Origin: Hyphomonadaceae bacterium
GTDB lineage: Bacteria; Pseudomonadota; Alphaproteobacteria; Caulobacterales; Aquidulcibacteraceae
Assembly (NCBI GenBank): GCA_023384105.1
Contig: JAHDXR010000009.1
Span: forward strand, 62,001-126,000
DNA length: 64,000 bases
Reading direction: 5' to 3'
How positions within the stretch are numbered: position 1 is the first letter of the stretch; each line of letters opens with the position of its first letter. Positions 19,252 through 27,065 of the stretch are shown here, one piece after another. The position numbers and the translations under genes are program-made. The notes beneath the pieces are model-generated. The model did not search any database. It worked only from the letters and a program-made list of their open reading frames with translations, and was not told the origin of the DNA.

Positions 19252-20424
19252 TCAGTAGCTCTTCGGCAGCCCGAGCACGCGTTCGGCGATGAAGTTCAGG
19301 ATCATCTCCCGGCTCACCGGGGCGATGCGGGCGATCATGGCTTCGCGGAAGTAACGCTCGACGAAGTATTCCTTCGCGTAGCCCATGCCGCCGTGCGCAA
19401 GCACCGCGGACTCGCAGGCGCGGAAACCGGCTTCGCCGCCGAGATACTTCGCGGCGTTGGCTTCGGCGCCGCATTCCCTGCCGGCGTCGTAGAGCGCGGC
19501 CGCTTTGAACGCCATCAGATTGGCCGCCTCCAACTCGGCCCAGGCTTTCGCCAGCGGATGCTGGACGCCCTGGTTCTGACCGATCGGCCGGCCGAACACG
19601 ATGCGCTCCTTGGCGTACTGGGCCGCGCGCCTCAGCGCCGCCCGGCCCAGGCCAATCGCCTCCGCCGCGAACAACACGCGCTCCGGATTGAGACCTGACA
19701 GCAATATTTTGAAGCCCGCGCCTTCTTCGCCGATCAGCTCCGCGTTGCTGACCTCCAAATCCTCGATGAAGAGCGTGTTGCACTCCACCGCCTTGCGGCC
19801 CATTTTCGGGATCGGGTTCGCTTCGATCTTGCTGCGGTCGAAGTCGGCGTAGAACAGCGACAAGCCATCGGTCGGGCGCTTGGCCTCGTCCTTCGGCGTG
19901 GTGCGCGCGATCAGCATGATCTTGTTCGCGCGCTGGGCGTTGGTCGTCCAGATCTTGCGGCCGCGGATGCGATAGCCGCCGCCGGTCTTTTCGGCGCGCG
20001 TCTCGAGGCTCGCCGTGTCCAGGCCGGAATTCGGCTCCGTCACCGCAAAGCAGGCCTTGTCGCGGCCGTCGATCGCCGGCGGCAGGAACCGCGCCTGCTG
20101 CTCCTCCGTGCCGAACTTCACGATCGGCATCAGGCCGAAGATGTTGAGGTGGATCGCGCTCGCGCCTGAGAAGCCGGCGCCCGATTGCGCCACCGTCTGC
20201 ATCATCAGCGCCGCTTCGGTGAGGCCGAGCCCCGCGCCGCCGACCCGCTCCGGCATCGCCACGCCCAGCCATCCGCCCGCGGCGATGTCGGCGACGAACG
20301 CCTCCGGGAACGTCCCCGTTTCATCGGTCTTCAGCCAGTACTGGTCGTCGTACTTGGCGCAAATCTCCTCGATCGCGTGTTTGATCGCGGACTGCTCTTC
20401 GGTGAGTTCGATGGCGAAAGTCAT
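19252..20424 (-). CDS. Acyl-CoA dehydrogenase
   Basis: FAD-dependent oxidation of an acyl-CoA to the enoyl-CoA. The helical N-domain (ELTEEQSAIKHAIEEICAKYDD), the flavin-binding CFAVTEPNSGLDTASLETRA, the beta-domain KIWTTNAQRANKIMLIARTT, and the C-domain RESAVLAHGGMGYAKEYFVERYFRE are all clear. The ATG at 20424 overlaps the TGA of the upstream FAD oxidoreductase (ATGA), fixing the start at MTFAIELTEEQ and indicating translational coupling. The product is 390 aa. Chain-length preference is unknown. Confidence 0.93.
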   Translation of the reverse strand: MTFAIELTEEQSAIKHAIEEICAKYDDQYWLKTDETGTFPEAFVADIAAGGWLGVAMPERVGGAGLGLTEAALMMQTVAQSGAGFSGASAIHLNIFGLMPIVKFGTEEQQARFLPPAIDGRDKACFAVTEPNSGLDTASLETRAEKTGGGYRIRGRKIWTTNAQRANKIMLIARTTPKDEAKRPTDGLSLFYADFDRSKIEANPIPKMGRKAVECNTLFIEDLEVSNAELIGEEGAGFKILLSGLNPERVLFAAEAIGLGRAALRRAAQYAKERIVFGRPIGQNQGVQHPLAKAWAELEAANLMAFKAAALYDAGRECGAEANAAKYLGGEAGFRACESAVLAHGGMGYAKEYFVERYFREAMIARIAPVSREMILNFIAERVLGLPKSY

Positions 20425-21491
20425 GAAGCTCCAAATCTCGTCGGCGACAGCGCCGCCCAAGCGGGCGGCATTTCGGCGCCGAATACGTGCGCGGTTATGA
20501 TCTCAGCCGTGATCGGCGCCAAGAGCCAGCCGTTGCGCGAATGGCCCGCCGCAACCAGCACGCCATCCCCGCTCGGCCCGATCATGGGCCAGCCGTCCGG
20601 CGACATGGGGCGGATGCCGGCCCATGCGCCGCCTTCGGCTTTCACTTCGCCCGGAAGCAAAGCCTCGGCGGCGGCGAGCAAGCCTTCGCTCCGCGCCGGA
20701 TCGACGGCGCGGTCATAGCGGCCGAACTCCATCGTCGAGCCGAGCACGACATCCCGGCGCCGTTGCGCCATGTAGAACTCGCCGGTGCGCAATGTCACGC
20801 CAAGCGGGCGCTCCAGCGTCACGGATACGAGTTGCCCTTTTGCAGGCTGCACATGCTTGAGCGCCGGTGCGGCCGTCATGAGCTTTTCGGTGGCCCACAC
20901 GCCCGGCGCGAGCACGACAATATCGGCCTCGTACGTGCGCCGGTCATGGGTCAGCACCCAGTTCGCGGTGACGCTGGCGACATCGGTTTCGAACTCGATC
21001 AGCACGCCCATCGCGCGCGCCTGCATCGCAAGCCCGGTCAGCACACGCAGCGGATCGGCGACGCCTTCCTTGTCGACGAACACGGCATGCTCGACCTTGG
21101 CTTCCAGCCCGGTGCGCTTGCGGAACTGCCCGCTCGTCAGCGGCGTCGCCGACGCGCCGAGACGCTCCGCATGGCGCTGAAGCGCGGCGGCCTCCTCGGC
21201 GCTTGCGCTGACCACGGCGACGCCGTCGAAACGCACGCCGTCCGCCCATTCCGCGCCGACATGGCGCTCGCGCCAAAGAGTGTACGATTCCAACGCCAGC
21301 TTCTCGTGCGGCGACGCTTCGCGATCGATCGGCGCCAGCATGCCCGCGGCGGCGGCGGATGCGATCGGACCATGCACGCTCGGGTGCTCGCGCTCGGCCT
21401 CGAGCAGCGTGACCTGAGCGCCGCCCTGGCGCAGCCGCACCGCGCAGAACAGGCCGATGACGCCGCCGCCGACGATGACAACTTTCTTCAT
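20421..21491 (-). CDS. FAD-dependent oxidoreductase, DAO family (D-amino-acid/glycine oxidase-like)
   Basis: Flavin amine oxidase fold: GxGxxG dinucleotide motif KVVIVGGGVIGLFCAVRLRQGG at the N-terminus, central substrate domain, and the C-terminal FAD motif AGIRPMSPDGWPMIGPSGDGVLVAAGHSRNG split by the usual G/W pattern. ATG 21491 is chosen as the codon immediately before the FAD motif, with an AAGGAGG ribosome site upstream that overlaps a hairpin (21508-21529). It is coupled by ATGA to the acyl-CoA dehydrogenase. It could be a ThiO-like glycine oxidase, but no thiamin genes are nearby, so the substrate is left open. Confidence 0.88.
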   Translation of the reverse strand: MKKVVIVGGGVIGLFCAVRLRQGGAQVTLLEAEREHPSVHGPIASAAAAGMLAPIDREASPHEKLALESYTLWRERHVGAEWADGVRFDGVAVVSASAEEAAALQRHAERLGASATPLTSGQFRKRTGLEAKVEHAVFVDKEGVADPLRVLTGLAMQARAMGVLIEFETDVASVTANWVLTHDRRTYEADIVVLAPGVWATEKLMTAAPALKHVQPAKGQLVSVTLERPLGVTLRTGEFYMAQRRRDVVLGSTMEFGRYDRAVDPARSEGLLAAAEALLPGEVKAEGGAWAGIRPMSPDGWPMIGPSGDGVLVAAGHSRNGWLLAPITAEIITAHVFGAEMPPAWAALSPTRFGAS

Positions 21492-21507
21492 GGGGTTCCA
21501 TGTCCCT

Positions 21508-21529
21508 CCTTGCGCCAACGGGCGCAAGG
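21508..21529 (-). terminator. Hairpin between the RyR-protein operon and the FAD oxidoreductase gene
   Basis: A 9-bp perfect stem (CCTTGCGCC/GGCGCAAGG) with a 4-nt loop lies 36 bp after the RyR-domain gene. There is no T run after it. On the minus strand its second arm runs into the AAGGAGG ribosome site of the next gene, so it may hide that site as well as, or in place of, ending transcription. Confidence 0.4.
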
Positions 21530-21564: not shown

Positions 21565-22215
21565 TCAGCGCTTCTTGGGCTTCGCTTCGGAGACGATCGC
21601 GCCGCTTACGGCGACAATGGCGTCGATGCCGGCCGCCAGCAGCGCTTCCGGCGACACGGCGGCGCCGGTCTGCCTGGACAATCTGCGCGCGGCGGTCTCC
21701 AGGCGCGCCCAGCTCTTGGCGTCGACGCGCACCACTTTGAACGTCGGCGCTTTCGCCTTCCTCGGCGTGACTACCTTGGCGCTCTTGCGCACGCTCGCGA
21801 CCGCCTTCCGCATGAGGTCGACATGCGCGCGGTCTTTGTCTTTCTCGACCTCCGAGAGCTGACCGTATGGCTTGAACAGCTCCTTGGCCAGGCTCTTGTC
21901 GCGCCTGTTGCGCTTGATCCAGCACTTGTGGACGTAGTCCGCCGCGGCCTCCCGGTCGTTCGGGAATTTGGCCACCGCCGCGTAGGCGTCCTCGGCCGCT
22001 TGCCTGTTGTCGGCCTTTGCGTTGGGATGCAGCCTCGACCATGGTTGATTGATGTCAACCATGGTCCCGCCCCGCATGCGCATGCGCGGTTGACCCCGTT
22101 GCTCGGGGTTGGCCTTGAGCAATTGCTTGCGCCAAGCCTCATGCAAGCGCGCCGCGAACAGTTCAGTGATGACATCCGCCGCACCGTCAGGCGCGCGCCG
22201 CGCAGATTTCGCCAT
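21565..22215 (-). CDS. RyR-domain-like protein (third gene of patatin-TIR-RyR operon)
   Basis: A lysine-rich 216-residue protein. Residues 53-140 resemble bacterial RyR (ryanodine-receptor repeat) domains: DINQPWSRLHPNAKADNRQ, a YVHKCWIKRNRR helix and FKPYGQLSEVEKDKDR with the usual LxxY..L...EK.KDR pattern; a related HEAW segment is at 25-28. RyR domains in prokaryotes have been proposed to bind nucleotide-derived ligands in conflict systems. The C-terminal 57 residues after a basic stretch (about 142-158) look like a separate small helical unit. It lies 62 bp after the TIR gene in the same direction. The domain call is by pattern and moderate. Confidence 0.55.
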   Translation of the reverse strand: MAKSARRAPDGAADVITELFAARLHEAWRKQLLKANPEQRGQPRMRMRGGTMVDINQPWSRLHPNAKADNRQAAEDAYAAVAKFPNDREAAADYVHKCWIKRNRRDKSLAKELFKPYGQLSEVEKDKDRAHVDLMRKAVASVRKSAKVVTPRKAKAPTFKVVRVDAKSWARLETAARRLSRQTGAAVSPEALLAAGIDAIVAVSGAIVSEAKPKKR

Positions 22216-22277
22216 GTGAACGGCCTAACAGCACTGTGTGAGAATTCGCCAAACCAACTTGGTTTCCGGGTGTTCAC

Positions 22278-23549
22278 TCATCTGATGACCTGGCGCCGAT
22301 GGGCATGAGTGATCCGCTTGACGATCCCAACCAGGTCCAACTCAGATTCGTAGTATTGGACCTCGATGTCCCTGAACATATAGGGCGGCGTCCGGGGCTT
22401 GCCCTGACAGGTGATGTAGAGCGGCCGATTGGCGCCCAGGGCGGCGCCCGCTTCGATGGACGAGTTGAGACCGTAGTTGAACTTTTCCGGGCTGATGTTC
22501 GCCCCGTTGTTCGTGATGTCTATGAGATTGAATTCGGCCGTCTGAATGAGTTTCACGATCTTCTCTTGCGCGCCTCTGCCGGTCAGGCCGGCGCCCGCCT
22601 TCACCGGCAGGCCAACGAGCCGCGAGATCAATCTTTGCACCGGCAGAAACATCTCCTTCGACAAATCGGCGAAGGAGTGGCCCATGAAGACGTGCTCTCC
22701 GCGGTCCGGAGCCCTCAGAGCGCCCGAGAACCGATCCAGCTGGTCGGCCATGGCGTCTTCGAGACCTTCCTTGCCGGCAGCTATGAGATCATCCGTGAAC
22801 ACAAACGCGTCAAAGGGCCAGTCGGCGCTCTTCACCCCCTCGCGGCAGAGCACGAGAATTGGCTTACCTAGCGCTTGCGCCAATTTGATTTCGGAAACCA
22901 CGTATGGCGAGGTGGCGCCGTCGTTTCTCAAGGGCAGCAAAGCCACTAAACCGCTGCATCCGGAGATGATCTTCTCAAGGCGCGGGTTGCTCATATGAGG
23001 CTGGTCGGGAGCGTCGCACACAAGGCGGCACCCCATTCCTCTGACGACCTCCAGCAACACGTCGTTCGCCGCTTTGTCGGGACGTCGCGTCCCGCGGCTG
23101 AAATACACCGGCCGTCCTCCGGCGGGATCCGCGGTGCCGAACAATGCCTCCAGCACAAGGGCCGCGCTCCTCGGTTCGAGCACGCCGTTCAGCGCATTGA
23201 TGTGAGTGTAGGTGCGCAGGAAGCTGTGAGGCGTCGTCTCGTCAATCCGGATGCTGGCGATGCGGAAGTTCGGATCGGCCTGCTTTTCGGCCAGAGCGCA
23301 TTCGAACTCCTGGTTTACCCACTCCGAAGCGACAGAGCTCTTCGAGACCACGAACAGCGCCGACTGGCTGTCGCCCAGGGCGTGCGAAAGCTCGCCTGCG
23401 GCCGCTCCGTACAAGTTCCTATCGTACCAGACCGACACCTTGGCCGTGGTCGAAAGCCAAGCATACAATTCATCCACGAAAGCGGCCTTGTCCGCGGACG
23501 CATGGCTCAAGAAGACATTATGCCCTCGCGCGCCAAATGCGGTGGCCAT
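22278..23549 (-). CDS. TIR-domain protein with two further Rossmann-like domains
   Basis: ATG 23549 overlaps the TAA of the patatin gene by one base (TAATG), fixing the start and implying coupling. Residues 10-135 are a TIR domain: NVFLSHASADKAAFVDEL, a WYDRNLYGA box and SEWVNQEFECAL, where E81 sits at the catalytic NADase glutamate position (W-xxx-E). Residues 146-240 (RPVYFSRGT ... YVVSEIKLAQALGKPILVL) and 285-410 (EHVFMGHSFADL ... NLIDITNN ... SSIEAGAALGANRPLYI) look like two more TIR/deoxyribosyltransferase-type Rossmannoid modules. Likely soluble; no membrane segment. Probable NAD+-consuming or signal-making/sensing enzyme of a defence operon. Second and third domain assignments are inference. 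Confidence 0.8.
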   Translation of the reverse strand: MATAFGARGHNVFLSHASADKAAFVDELYAWLSTTAKVSVWYDRNLYGAAAGELSHALGDSQSALFVVSKSSVASEWVNQEFECALAEKQADPNFRIASIRIDETTPHSFLRTYTHINALNGVLEPRSAALVLEALFGTADPAGGRPVYFSRGTRRPDKAANDVLLEVVRGMGCRLVCDAPDQPHMSNPRLEKIISGCSGLVALLPLRNDGATSPYVVSEIKLAQALGKPILVLCREGVKSADWPFDAFVFTDDLIAAGKEGLEDAMADQLDRFSGALRAPDRGEHVFMGHSFADLSKEMFLPVQRLISRLVGLPVKAGAGLTGRGAQEKIVKLIQTAEFNLIDITNNGANISPEKFNYGLNSSIEAGAALGANRPLYITCQGKPRTPPYMFRDIEVQYYESELDLVGIVKRITHAHRRQVIR

Positions 23550-24778
23550 TACGTCCGCCCCCATTCGGGCAGATCGAACTTCGGGTCAGGGTAGGCGGCG
23601 TCCACGAAGGTCTTGCCGGCGGCCAGGCCGACCTCGAGCAGCAGCTCCATATTGGCCTTCTTGCCATTGTCCATGAGGTCGAGCGCGTCGAGCACGGCGG
23701 CGTCGAGTTCGCGGCCGATCATACGCTCGAGCTGCGTCATCGGCGGCGCAGGATCGCCGCGGCGGCGCGCCCTGGGCTTGGTGTCGAGCGTGACGTCGAT
23801 GCGCTGATAGTCCAGCAGCGGCGCGCCGGCGATGCAGGCGCCGGCCATGTCGCCGATCTCGGAATTGATCCGCCACGGCTTCCGCGGCGCCGACAGGGCC
23901 TGCATCATCATCACGCCCTGCAGCTGCGTGTCATAGACCATGGCGCGCAGCGCGTGCACGCCGCGCAGCCCCGGCGGCAGCCCCTGGAACGCTTTGCCGT
24001 CGATGCTCGGGCGGCGCATGCCGGTGCCGATCGACATCATCATCAGATTGTCGGCGCCCGCCTTCCAGCCGAACTTGTAGGACGGCTCCAGCGCCAGCAT
24101 CAGCAGCTGCATGCTGGGATTGTTGTTGGCGCTCACCGCGCCGTCGACGAAATAGCCCTTCTGGATGGGACGCCGCTTCTCGTCGAACGCGATGTCGATC
24201 ACGATCTCGTCGAAAAAGGTCGGCGCGGCCGCGCTTGCGAGCACCAGATCCGTCAAGCGATAGCGCTTGTTCGGATAGATGCCCTCTTCCTGAATGTCGT
24301 AGAACATGCCGAGCGGATGGTTGGTCACCACCCAGGCGGAGCCCGTGTCGATCCGCTTGGCGTGGATCGCCAGTCCCGTCTTGATGTCCTGCGAACCGAG
24401 CGTCTTGGTGGACAGCACCGAATGCAGCGCCCGCCGCAGCTTCTTCGACTCGAACTTCGATTGCAGGAAGACGCCGTCGCCGGCGTTGCGGCCGAACACC
24501 TCGGGCCCCAGGCGCATGTAAAGCTCGATCATCTCGTCGATGCCGAGCCCGAGCGAAAGCCCGGAGGCGATGATGGCGCCGGTCGAGGTGCCGCCGATGA
24601 GATCGTAGTAGTCGCTGAGGCGGAAATCGGGATTGCCGCCGGCGCGGCGACGCAACTCGTCCTCGACCGCTTTCAGCATGCCGAGCGACAGAATCCCTTT
24701 CACCCCGCCGCCATCGAGCGAAAGGATGCGCTTTGCGCCCGTGTCCGGCGACAGGTGTTCGAACAGCGTCTTCGGCAT
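23549..24778 (-). CDS. Patatin-like phospholipase (CapV-like)
   Basis: Predicted Ser-Asp dyad lipase acting on membrane phospholipids. The oxyanion loop is DGGGVKG (22-28), the nucleophile S65 sits in GGTSTGA, and the catalytic Asp is D212 in VDGAVSANNN. Length (409 aa) and the cytosolic, signal-free N-terminus resemble patatin effectors of CBASS-type immunity rather than secreted ExoU-type toxins. It is first in a three-gene operon: patatin, TIR, RyR-like. A ribosome site GAGGGG lies 4-5 bp before ATG 24778. Only 37 bp separate it from the upstream FolC-like gene, so readthrough from that pair is possible. No cGAS/DncV-like nucleotidyltransferase is within the window. Confidence 0.9.
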   Translation of the reverse strand: MPKTLFEHLSPDTGAKRILSLDGGGVKGILSLGMLKAVEDELRRRAGGNPDFRLSDYYDLIGGTSTGAIIASGLSLGLGIDEMIELYMRLGPEVFGRNAGDGVFLQSKFESKKLRRALHSVLSTKTLGSQDIKTGLAIHAKRIDTGSAWVVTNHPLGMFYDIQEEGIYPNKRYRLTDLVLASAAAPTFFDEIVIDIAFDEKRRPIQKGYFVDGAVSANNNPSMQLLMLALEPSYKFGWKAGADNLMMMSIGTGMRRPSIDGKAFQGLPPGLRGVHALRAMVYDTQLQGVMMMQALSAPRKPWRINSEIGDMAGACIAGAPLLDYQRIDVTLDTKPRARRRGDPAPPMTQLERMIGRELDAAVLDALDLMDNGKKANMELLLEVGLAAGKTFVDAAYPDPKFDLPEWGRT

Positions 24779-24815: not shown

Positions 24816-26030
24816 TTAAAAGAAGGCCAGTGTGGCCGGATCGCGACCTACATGTAACGCCTTGAATTCAGCGGCCAAAAAGAAGCTTCCCGCAACATAG
24901 GCGGCGTTGGCCCCGGCCCGCCCCAACGCGATATGACGCGCCTCCTCGACACTTTCGGCCAAGACGACCTCGGCGCCCGGGTTCACGCGGCGCACCTCGG
25001 CGGCGACCGCCGCAGGCGGCGCGCCCTTGTGGCGGGCGGCGACGCAGACGACGACGCCAAAGCCCGGCGCCAGCGCCTCGACGATGGCGCCAATCGGCTT
25101 GTCCAGTGAAACGCCGCAAACCAGCAGCGCCGAACGGCCGCCCCGCAAGACCTCGAACCCCGCGCGCGCCGCACGCACCGCCGCCGGCGTGTGGCCGACA
25201 TCGATGACGATCAGCGGCTCCGGCTCAATGACCTCGAGCCGGCCGGGCCAATTCGTCTGCGCCAGTCCCGCCGCCTTCTGTTCAGCGCTCAACGGCGCGA
25301 GATCGTCCGCAAGCTTGAGCGCGAAGGCTGTGTTCTGACGCTGAAACTGACCGGGCAAAGGCGGAGCCAGCTCCTCGGCCGGCGGAAAAACACAGCGCAC
25401 GCCGCGGCGTGCGCAATGCGCTTCGATGGCCTCGCGCTGCGCGGCGCAGCTTTCGCCGACGAACACCGTTGCGCCAGCCGGCGCCGCATCCAGCTTTTCG
25501 CGCGCGATCTCTTCGAGCGTATCGCCCAGCAGGGCGGTATGTTCGAGGTCGAGCGACGTCAACGCCAGACGCTTCGCCTCGATCAGCCGCACCGGATCAA
25601 GCCGACCCCCAATGCCGGCCTCCCACACCGTATAGGCGCAACCGCGCGCGGCAAAACAATCAGCCGCGATCAGGAACAGAAACTCGAAGCCGCCGAGGTT
25701 TTCAGCTTCGCCGGCGCGCTCGGCCGCCGCTGCGACGCGCCGCCAATGCGTATCCAACGCATCGTCGGAGATGTCCTCGCCGTCGATGCGGAAGCGCTCA
25801 TTCAGATCGAACAGGTGCGGCGAGGTGAACAGGCCGACGCCGGCGCCGGTCTGCGCCAGCAGCGACGCCGTCATCGCCGCCGTCGACCCCTTGCCGTTGG
25901 AGCCGACGACGACACAGCCGCGCGCGCCAAACGCCTGAAGCGAAACGCCCAGCTCCGCGGCGATGGCGGAAACGCGCGCCAGCCCCGGCCCCGCGCCGAA
26001 CTTCGGATAGGGCGCGCGCCAGGGATTCAT
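24816..26030 (-). CDS. FolC-like Mur-ligase-family amide ligase (divergent folylpolyglutamate/dihydrofolate synthase)
   Basis: ATP-dependent amide ligase fold. P-loop GSNGKGST (43-50), TSPHLFDLNERFRIDG, WEAGIGGRLDP and TSLDLEHTALLGDTLEEIAREK follow FolC order. The usual C-domain DGAHNP motif is replaced by IDVGHTPAA, and at 404 aa it is somewhat short, so a true FolC role is not assured. ATG 26030 overlaps the TGA of the upstream ATP-grasp gene (ATGA). A Mur ligase coupled to a CphA-type ATP-grasp enzyme recalls cyanophycin synthetase, where both domains are fused. It could be the cell's folC, or a ligase in a dedicated peptide-like pathway. Confidence 0.82.
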   Translation of the reverse strand: MNPWRAPYPKFGAGPGLARVSAIAAELGVSLQAFGARGCVVVGSNGKGSTAAMTASLLAQTGAGVGLFTSPHLFDLNERFRIDGEDISDDALDTHWRRVAAAAERAGEAENLGGFEFLFLIAADCFAARGCAYTVWEAGIGGRLDPVRLIEAKRLALTSLDLEHTALLGDTLEEIAREKLDAAPAGATVFVGESCAAQREAIEAHCARRGVRCVFPPAEELAPPLPGQFQRQNTAFALKLADDLAPLSAEQKAAGLAQTNWPGRLEVIEPEPLIVIDVGHTPAAVRAARAGFEVLRGGRSALLVCGVSLDKPIGAIVEALAPGFGVVVCVAARHKGAPPAAVAAEVRRVNPGAEVVLAESVEEARHIALGRAGANAAYVAGSFFLAAEFKALHVGRDPATLAFF

Positions 26031-26986
26031 TTCAGCGCCGCCGCGAAATTGGCGCGCCAGATCGCTTCGATCAGGTCCCAGCGGCCCGCGCCTTCAAGCG
26101 TCGCGATCATCGGGTTCGAGTTCACCTCGATCACCGCGGTTTCGCGCCCGTCGCCCGAAAGGTCGAACAGATCGACCCCGGCCAAGCGCAACCCAATCGC
26201 CGCTGCCGCGGCTATGGCTATCTGCGCCAAGCGCGCCTCGGCGCCGTCCCTCAACTGTGAAGCCCCGCCCCCGGCGGCGCGGTTGGCTGGGCCTTCCAGC
26301 ACGATCTGCGCCCCGCTTTGGACGACAGCGTCGGGATCGAGCAATCGCCCATCCGCATCGCGCCCGCGCGGCTTCAACGGCGGCGCGCCGGGTTCGCGCG
26401 GCAACGCCGCAACCAGTTCGCGCAGACTGCGTGCGCCGTCGCCGACGACCGACGCCGGCGCTTTACAGTATGAAAAAAGAGCCTGGCCTTCGAGCACGAA
26501 CACGCGGTGTTCCGGCGCGCGCACGTAAGGCTGCGCCAGAATTGCGAAATGCTCGCGCGAAACGCGCTGCACGTAATCGGCGAACGCCTCGGCGCTCTCG
26601 ATCACCTCCGCATAGAGCCCGTTCGACGCGGCGATCGGTTTGCAGAACAGCGGATAGGCGGCGCTCTCGGCGAAACGCAGGGCGTCTTCCGGCTCGCGCC
26701 CCGGCGAACGCATTTCGGCCCAGCGCCTGGTGACGAAGAACATTCGCCCCGGCACGGTCGGCACGCCGGCTTCGCGCAGGACGGCCGTACAAAACGCCTT
26801 GTCGCGCGCGATCGAAGCGGCGCGCGCATCGTTCAGCGCATAGGGCGTGGCCGCGCCCGCGGCGAAAACCGCCCTCCGTCCGCCGCCGCTGATCTCGAAC
26901 AGATAGCCGTCCGCGCCATCCAGCGAGCGGAAGCGATATCCGCAGGCCTGGGCGGTGTGAGCGGCGTAGCGCGCGTGGGCGCTCAG
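26027..26986 (-). CDS. ATP-grasp ligase, cyanophycin-synthetase/RimK-like; start codon non-standard or within tRNA-His
   Basis: ATP-grasp fold with N-terminal DKAFCTAVLREAGVPTVPG, lysine in LFCKPIAASNG, the CphA-type PASVVGDGARSLRELV, and the magnesium-binding end GVDLFDLSGDG ... VIEVNSNPMI. It would activate a carboxylate as acyl-phosphate and form an amide. No ATG, GTG or TTG lies between the tRNA-His 3' end and the conserved domain; candidates are CTG 26986 (used here), ATT 26989 overlapping the tRNA CCA end, or a GTG at 27031 that is the tRNA anticodon. GGAGG in the tRNA acceptor arm sits 7 nt before the ATT. Coupled by ATGA to the FolC-like gene. Confidence 0.78.
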   Translation of the reverse strand: MSAHARYAAHTAQACGYRFRSLDGADGYLFEISGGGRRAVFAAGAATPYALNDARAASIARDKAFCTAVLREAGVPTVPGRMFFVTRRWAEMRSPGREPEDALRFAESAAYPLFCKPIAASNGLYAEVIESAEAFADYVQRVSREHFAILAQPYVRAPEHRVFVLEGQALFSYCKAPASVVGDGARSLRELVAALPREPGAPPLKPRGRDADGRLLDPDAVVQSGAQIVLEGPANRAAGGGASQLRDGAEARLAQIAIAAAAAIGLRLAGVDLFDLSGDGRETAVIEVNSNPMIATLEGAGRWDLIEAIWRANFAAALK

Positions 26987-26988
26987 AA

Positions 26989-27065
26989 TGGTACCGCCTC
27001 CAGGGCTCGAACCAGGGACCTCCGGATCCACAATCCGGCGCTCTAACCAACTGAGCTAAGGCGGC
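26989..27065 (-). tRNA. tRNA-His(GTG), alphaproteobacterial type with A73 and no encoded G-1
   Basis: The minus strand reads GCCGCCTTAGCTCAGTTGG, anticodon arm CCGGA-TTGTGGA-TCCGG (anticodon GTG), T arm GGTTCGAGCC, and acceptor AGGCGGT followed by A73 and encoded CCA. The base before position 1 is T, so G-1 is not encoded and the discriminator is A where most bacteria have C73. This matches the atypical tRNA-His described in alphaproteobacteria such as Caulobacter, whose HisRS does not need G-1. Confidence 0.95.

Follow-up and report, generated by a model that had tools for sequence, protein, structure and literature searches.

According to the accessible part of PMC11204291, a SLOG domain forms the sensor part of the Thoeris protein ThsA. 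Phage proteins with ryanodine-receptor (RyR) domains, including RyDEP, cleave or bind TIR-made 2'/3' cyclic ADP-ribose (2'/3'cADPR), as stated in the available text of PMC13232231 (bioRxiv, May 2026), where six of eight further homologues bind and those tested did not cleave. Human RyR3 R12 is reported with AMP-PCP and ADP bound in the accessible part of PMC12627627. In the locus analyzed here, a RyR-like protein encoded by the host is linked to an enzyme that may be lethal and, in some cases, also to a TIR enzyme. The locus occupies positions 21565..24778 of the window, i.e., the whole stretch of 64,000 nucleotides from a Hyphomonadaceae bacterium (GCA_023384105.1, contig JAHDXR010000009.1, positions 62,001 to 126,000), and consists of three genes on the reverse strand, coding for a patatin-like phospholipase of 409 amino acids (aa; 23549..24778), a TIR protein of 428 aa counted from its outer ATG (22278..23564), and a RyR-like protein of 216 aa (P0003; 21565..22215), which begins 62 bp past the TIR stop. 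Comparing this locus between genomes, we found that the conserved arrangement is the patatin with a partner, and that this partner is a SLOG-like protein in other relatives.

The patatin is of the same broad type as CapV of the cyclic-oligonucleotide-based anti-phage signaling systems (CBASS), but the cGAS/DncV-like nucleotidyltransferase (CD-NTase) belonging to the known system is missing from the three genes and their ten neighbors, and the SMODS model (PF18144) remained unmatched in the window genome (G000). Therefore, CBASS was rejected as an identity of the locus, in agreement with the preliminary description, which had noted the lack of a CD-NTase. SMODS was also unmatched in G024, the second genome with the TIR gene, although CD-NTases missed by this model may be present elsewhere in these genomes; it was matched in one of eight genomes searched (G019), and the control was positive in 3 of 14. 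The SMODS CD-NTase of G019 (G019:C1:80156-82084) is followed at about 1.3 kb by a second, distant patatin, separate from the conserved locus, and likely represents a CBASS apart from the conserved patatin. The locus resembles Thoeris in that a TIR enzyme is accompanied by an effector with lethal potential and a module of nucleotide-binding type, but its effector is a patatin, its receptor candidate is a RyR-like or a separate SLOG-like protein, and the TIR gene is mostly absent. No ThsA-type effector (SIR2-SLOG, macro or similar) was detected by Pfam in the three genes and ten neighbors, and the TIR protein showed only weak ThsB-type matches in PADLOC. The domain vocabulary (SLOG, TIR) and the predicted logic are shared with the nucleotide-centric conflict networks of PMC7159879, the available text of which mentions neither patatin nor RyR.

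The genus was represented by 30 genomes (G000–G029), in two of which (G018 and G028) the slot could not be assigned. The gene order is fixed: a Mur-ligase-type gene ('folC', 24816..26030, reverse strand; PF02875, E 6.9e-13) forms the upstream border and is followed by the patatin gene and a variable slot, which is bordered downstream by a gene for a FAD-dependent oxidoreductase ('thiO', 20421..21527, reverse strand; PF01266, E 3.2e-58). A RyR-like gene lies beside the FAD oxidase gene in 21 of the 30 genomes, including that of the window, and because these relatives adjoin the same flanking genes, its presence is not due to chance. The patatin is attached in 17 of these 21 loci and absent from the locus in G002, and the contigs of G013, G014 and G017 end within the RyR-like gene. 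In six further genomes (G010, G012, G015, G022, G025 and G026), a SLOG-like gene follows the patatin; the G015 copy is interrupted by a frame change, and since two neighboring genes are affected likewise, an assembly error is likely. The slot is empty in one genome, G008. In the rest of the family, we found patatin–SLOG pairs in eight genomes and a patatin–RyR pair in G045, while G039 carries a SLOG-like gene between the same flanks. Nine of ten SLOG-like proteins matched the YAcAr family at E ≤0.1 (best 0.0014), and two members scanned singly scored 14.0 and 16.1 bits, below the cut-off of 28.2; a profile search against the PDB returned only OmpH chains (E 0.024–0.033), which we regarded as chance matches. 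The preliminary description had proposed a three-gene operon, and its conservation as such had to be rejected because only 2 of the 18 patatin–RyR loci of the family (G000 and G024) contain the TIR gene. Full-length relatives of the TIR protein numbered three, including the window's own, among 299 genomes of the order, and the three genes thus do not travel as a unit. Around one effector, the natural pairings are RyR, SLOG-like, TIR plus RyR, or none.

The partner has been exchanged several times. To explain the distribution of RyR and SLOG, four changes are required on the patatin tree (33 rows) and five each on the trees of the FAD oxidase (35 rows) and the acyl-CoA dehydrogenase (31 rows, many of them partial); because many forks of the trees are weak, we read these counts as 'several'. 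G045 carries RyR, whereas the three other sampled members of its genus with this locus carry a SLOG-like gene. The two TIR loci, G000 and G024, are not sisters in the patatin and FAD-oxidase trees, and the acyl-CoA-dehydrogenase tree does not resolve them. At the junction to the patatin, 8 of 13 loci have the SLOG-like start codon 4 bases within the end of the patatin gene; another four show a different overlap or a start no more than 2 bases away, and G038 was missed by the motif. The RyR-like gene starts downstream of the patatin stop without overlap in eight TIR-less loci inspected. Arrival of the TIR gene and the 5' end of the RyR-like gene as one piece was rejected, since G000 and G024 share only 9 identities in 26 aligned columns, which is the highest value for G024 but was judged too few.

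Pairing of patatin and RyR genes also extends beyond the genus. A search with PF02026 gave matches in 59 of 249 genomes of the order and in 7 of 376 of the class, from which all 21 listed RyR loci outside the genus (ORFs of at most 256 codons; 18 from the order, 3 from the class) were inspected over about 5 kb on each side. A patatin was present within 5 kb at 5 of these 21 loci vs. 0.22 expected (P 2e-6), and within 1 kb at three vs. 0.054 expected (P 2e-5), as calculated under uniform placement and independence of the loci, which overstates G179 and G238 from one genus; four families remain. The genes adjoin on the same strand in G179, divergently in G114 and convergently in G388, and are about 1.4 kb apart in G238 and about 3.2 kb apart in G240. 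Inspection of all patatins listed for these 21 genomes added no further RyR neighbor. Because such pairs turn up again in other families, in two cases accompanied by TIR genes, the patatin–RyR link goes beyond chance; this part of the expected co-occurrence in other genomes was supported, while the TIR as a steady third part was not. In G240 (L153:6243-11184), the RyR and a TIR-WD40 gene share one strand and are convergent with the patatin, with TIR-WD40 in between, and in G179 (L156:6340-11350) the RyR–patatin pair adjoins TIR-pYEATS and TIR-Sel1 genes. The patatin-adjoining small RyR proteins of these genomes have 118–140 aa and lack a C-terminal tail. RyR and SLOG-like matches also occur on one ORF in G103, G126, G138, G174 and G198, as indicated by coordinates and ORF lengths; in G126 (L207:4071-8627), Pfam confirmed both on one ORF, beside a TIR-WD40 gene.

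The divergent RyR-like protein of the window contains two half-sites, H25xxW28...N70 and H96xxW99...K111...D128, together with a basic linker and a C-terminal tail. As a single protein, it carries the RyR label weakly, but a profile of 17 RyR-like sequences gave six PDB matches at E ≤1, all of them ryanodine-receptor chains (best E 0.011), and the five top structural matches of its predicted model agree with the label, as far as a poor model (pLDDT 56) allows. The RyR-like protein of the preliminary description is present in the sequence, and its label leans on the profile and on these structural matches. All 17 aligned proteins (from 22 genomes; G002, G004, G013, G016 and G017 were omitted as cut or flagged pieces) share H25, W28, N70, H96, W99, K111 and D128 without exception, and three of the four ligand-site residues of PMC13232231 have invariant counterparts in this alignment. 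The likeness to RyDEP and the PF02026 phage proteins, in the available text of PMC13232231, is of the R12 type, with the counterparts of H, W and D kept in half-site 2; in contrast to these proteins, the window gene belongs to the host, is paired with a patatin and codes for a C-terminal extension, half-site 1 has Asn for Asp, and the phosphate-binding His is replaced by Lys or Val. The small RyR proteins elsewhere show the exact spacing H-x2-W-x21-H-x16-D in 20 of 21 cases, including all five linked to a patatin. In the genome-wide PF02026 search, the window's RyR-like gene was not listed for G000, but a different locus was (contig C4, L206:4705-6642), coding for a 645-aa protein with a TrkA_N and a C-terminal RyR domain and an N-terminus that appears membrane-like by eye; RyR ORFs of about this length are listed in many genomes of the family.

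The patatin is the fixed gene of the locus. It matches PF01734 (E 2.4e-24) and contains Ser65 in GTSTG, Asp212 in DGAV and the loop GGGVKG starting at residue 23, which bears out the S65/D212 dyad described before. The PADLOC models 'Effector, Phospholipase', which we take to be CBASS models, match it with E-values of up to 1.6e-46, and its PDB relatives include patatin-17 and CapV; it reached 119 bits with NF041079 (cut-off 200) and 84 bits with the anti-phage phospholipase model NF053870 (cut-off 400). The TIR protein matches TIR_2 (E 5.2e-16, residues 17–125) and consists of an N-terminal TIR part (approximately 14–147) and alternating strand–helix segments at approximately 150–285 and 290–428, the latter two without any matching Pfam family. 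Its model is of low confidence (pLDDT 65), and the VIA list covers residues 13–147 only. The glutamate of the W..E motif is E86 if counted from the outer ATG and E81 from the inner ATG in GACGTAATGGCC, so that both the catalytic-position E81 and the TAATG coupling noted earlier hold. The patatin and TIR frames overlap at 23549..23564, and stop and start have one base in common if the inner ATG is used; the same 1-base overlap is found in G024, where the junction reads TAGTG at the same position. The TIR gene has a GC content of 0.607 vs. 0.654–0.687 in its four neighbors; it is accessory to the locus and was probably acquired. Relatives of the TIR protein were not found in viral contigs or plasmids, and a pattern scan of genome contigs returned only the G024 and G258 records. 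The relative in G258 (L057:1201-3811; 42% identity) lies head to head with a 342-aa gene looking TIR-like by eye, and no patatin match was present on the fetched stretch. A promoter scan gave two weak sites vs. 0.7 expected and three terminators vs. 3.2 expected, neither of which was used as evidence.

The genome with the empty slot provided a further observation. The patatin of G008 (L093:6271-7482) still forms an open frame, but its three catalytic motifs have become GGGAKA, GGSSA and DPEG; GGGxKG, the final Gly of GTSTG, and DGA have thus been lost. Its dN to the window patatin is 0.337 vs. 0.115–0.162 in five other genomes, whereas each of the five flanking genes tested is as close to the window as any in the set, or nearly so. 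Such changes would be expected of an effector under relaxed selection in the absence of its controller. The converse rule, that RyR decays wherever the patatin is lost, was rejected, because the internal stop in G002 lies at the C-terminal end of the protein, and the RyR fragments of G013 and G017 were rejected as cases of decay, because they are cut by contig ends.

Taken together, we tentatively favor a resident patatin effector that is controlled through NAD-derived nucleotides of the ADP-ribose type by the partner in the exchangeable downstream slot, although we hold this with less than even confidence. Upon infection or stress, the TIR protein would convert NAD+ to a signal of the cyclic ADP-ribose type, which the RyR-like protein would bind at its H-x-x-W half-sites; the loaded protein would then release or activate the patatin, which would cut membrane phospholipid and stop the cell, and in relatives the SLOG-like protein would take the place of the RyR-like one. 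This reading builds on the observed gene content and order, the exchange in the slot, the recurrence of patatin–RyR pairs, the conservation of the ligand site and the decay of the lone patatin; from these we infer the TIR product, the RyR ligand, the direction of control, the target lipid and protection from phages. The arrangement hints at a protective or suicide system under the control of a signal, and a link of the patatin to nucleotide-signal modules is better supported than phage defense. The bolder version, in which bacterial RyR proteins are receptors for TIR-made cyclic ADP-ribose and gate the patatin of a nucleotide-immune system with SLOG and RyR receptors swapped under a constant effector, appears doubtful to us.

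A number of observations weigh against the favored reading. The TIR gene is absent from 16 of the 18 patatin–RyR loci, the decay argument comes from one genome only, and partner dependence is not strict, as G002 retains an intact RyR-like gene and G039 a SLOG-like gene without a patatin at the locus (both genomes carry a more distant patatin at another place). A comparison of 17 RyR-paired with 5 SLOG-paired members of the genus showed no patatin column that distinguishes them (shuffled labels average 0.007, hence low power). The window protein reaches 24.0 bits (E 4.6e-5) with PF02026 and stays under the curated cut-off of 27.4, and we therefore use the name 'RyR-like'; its predicted model is of poor quality, and the label 'SLOG-like' likewise reflects matches under threshold. 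The RyR-like (A2) profile matched G000 alone among 385 genomes of the class, and the type is thus narrow. In P0003, the histidine that binds phosphate in RyDEP is missing, with K111 and V53 in its stead; the name RyDEP was therefore not applied to this family, and its ligand is possibly a different one. Finally, the locus lies among metabolic genes, unlike most phage-defense genes, and the patatin evolves slowly and occurs in 25 of the 30 genomes of the genus if fragments and the decayed copy are counted. Such wide presence and slow change fit a resident stress or lipid function and are a real argument for it.

The latter observations would fit a housekeeping or stress lipid system without any function against phages, in which the patatin remodels membrane or storage lipid and its partner reads the state of NAD/ADP-ribose or adenine nucleotides. 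The spread and slow evolution of the patatin, the metabolic neighborhood with no defense-model match except a weak one of the FAD oxidase, and the RyR domain in the TrkA_N protein of G000 agree with this; however, the repeated exchange of partners and the addition of TIR genes in the window, G240 and G179 are more like conflict genes, and the patatin matches PADLOC effector models; we regard this explanation as unlikely. The partner might also be a nucleotide-responsive transcription regulator, sensing with its RyR part and binding DNA with its tail. The RyR-like tails have a strand–helix–helix look, and two of the six scanned gave weak ribbon–helix–helix matches (PutA, MatP and TraY; E 0.026–0.079), but all of these are under cut-off, the window's own tail is unmatched, and other tails match unrelated models just as weakly. 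Because the G045 tail is a basic low-complexity sequence and the patatin-adjoining small RyR proteins elsewhere have no tail, both of which speak against a regulator, we consider it highly improbable.

Two further explanations concern the relation between the TIR and the other genes. The RyR-like protein may act as an off-switch, sequestering or hydrolyzing a TIR-made nucleotide and keeping the patatin inactive in healthy cells, as phage RyDEP does against Thoeris. According to the accessible text of PMC13232231, phage RyR-domain proteins do act as hydrolase or sponge, and the invariance of H96 and D128, the counterparts of the catalytic pair, as well as the non-overlapping RyR-like starts would agree with such a role. 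However, with no TIR at most of the loci, there is no local source of a signal to be removed, and the slot of relatives holds a SLOG-like protein, SLOG being a sensor part in ThsA (PMC11204291, accessible part); we judge the off-switch unlikely on balance. Alternatively, the TIR gene might be a passenger, i.e., an independent gene for a NADase that came to lie next to the patatin and has no connection to the pair. Its rarity at the patatin–RyR loci, its lower GC content and the third relative in G258 without a patatin match on the fetched stretch point in this direction, but the stop/start overlap with the patatin is shared by G000 and G024, which are non-sisters in the patatin tree, and TIR genes adjoin patatin and RyR genes elsewhere, which makes a mere passenger rather unlikely as well.

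Our literature search found no text joining patatin, TIR and RyR domains, or patatin, SLOG and TIR, and none in which a RyR protein of bacterial cells is paired with an effector, which does not prove novelty; PMC9503650 mentions neither RyR nor patatin. The locus makes the question whether RyR proteins are receptors for cyclic ADP-ribose testable in a simple bacterium. The idea of nucleotide-centric conflict itself reportedly goes back to a paper of 2015.

The ten neighbors scanned (13.0–30.4 kb) code for an aldolase, a NAD kinase, a CoA transferase, an acyl-CoA dehydrogenase, the FAD oxidase, the Mur ligase, an ATP-grasp protein, an M48 protein, FeoB and a DUF2336 protein according to Pfam. 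Nearness to known defense genes was not observed, as neither Pfam nor PADLOC revealed a defense protein among them; the one PADLOC match was weak and linked the FAD oxidase to a desaturase model. The genes for the Mur ligase and a RimK-like ATP-grasp protein overlap (24816-27031) and presumably resemble the two halves of a cyanophycin-synthetase-type pair. At the beginning of the window, an ORF at 1-765 resembles, by eye, part of a tyrosine recombinase and lies near a tRNA-Tyr gene (952-1037), a possible integration site.

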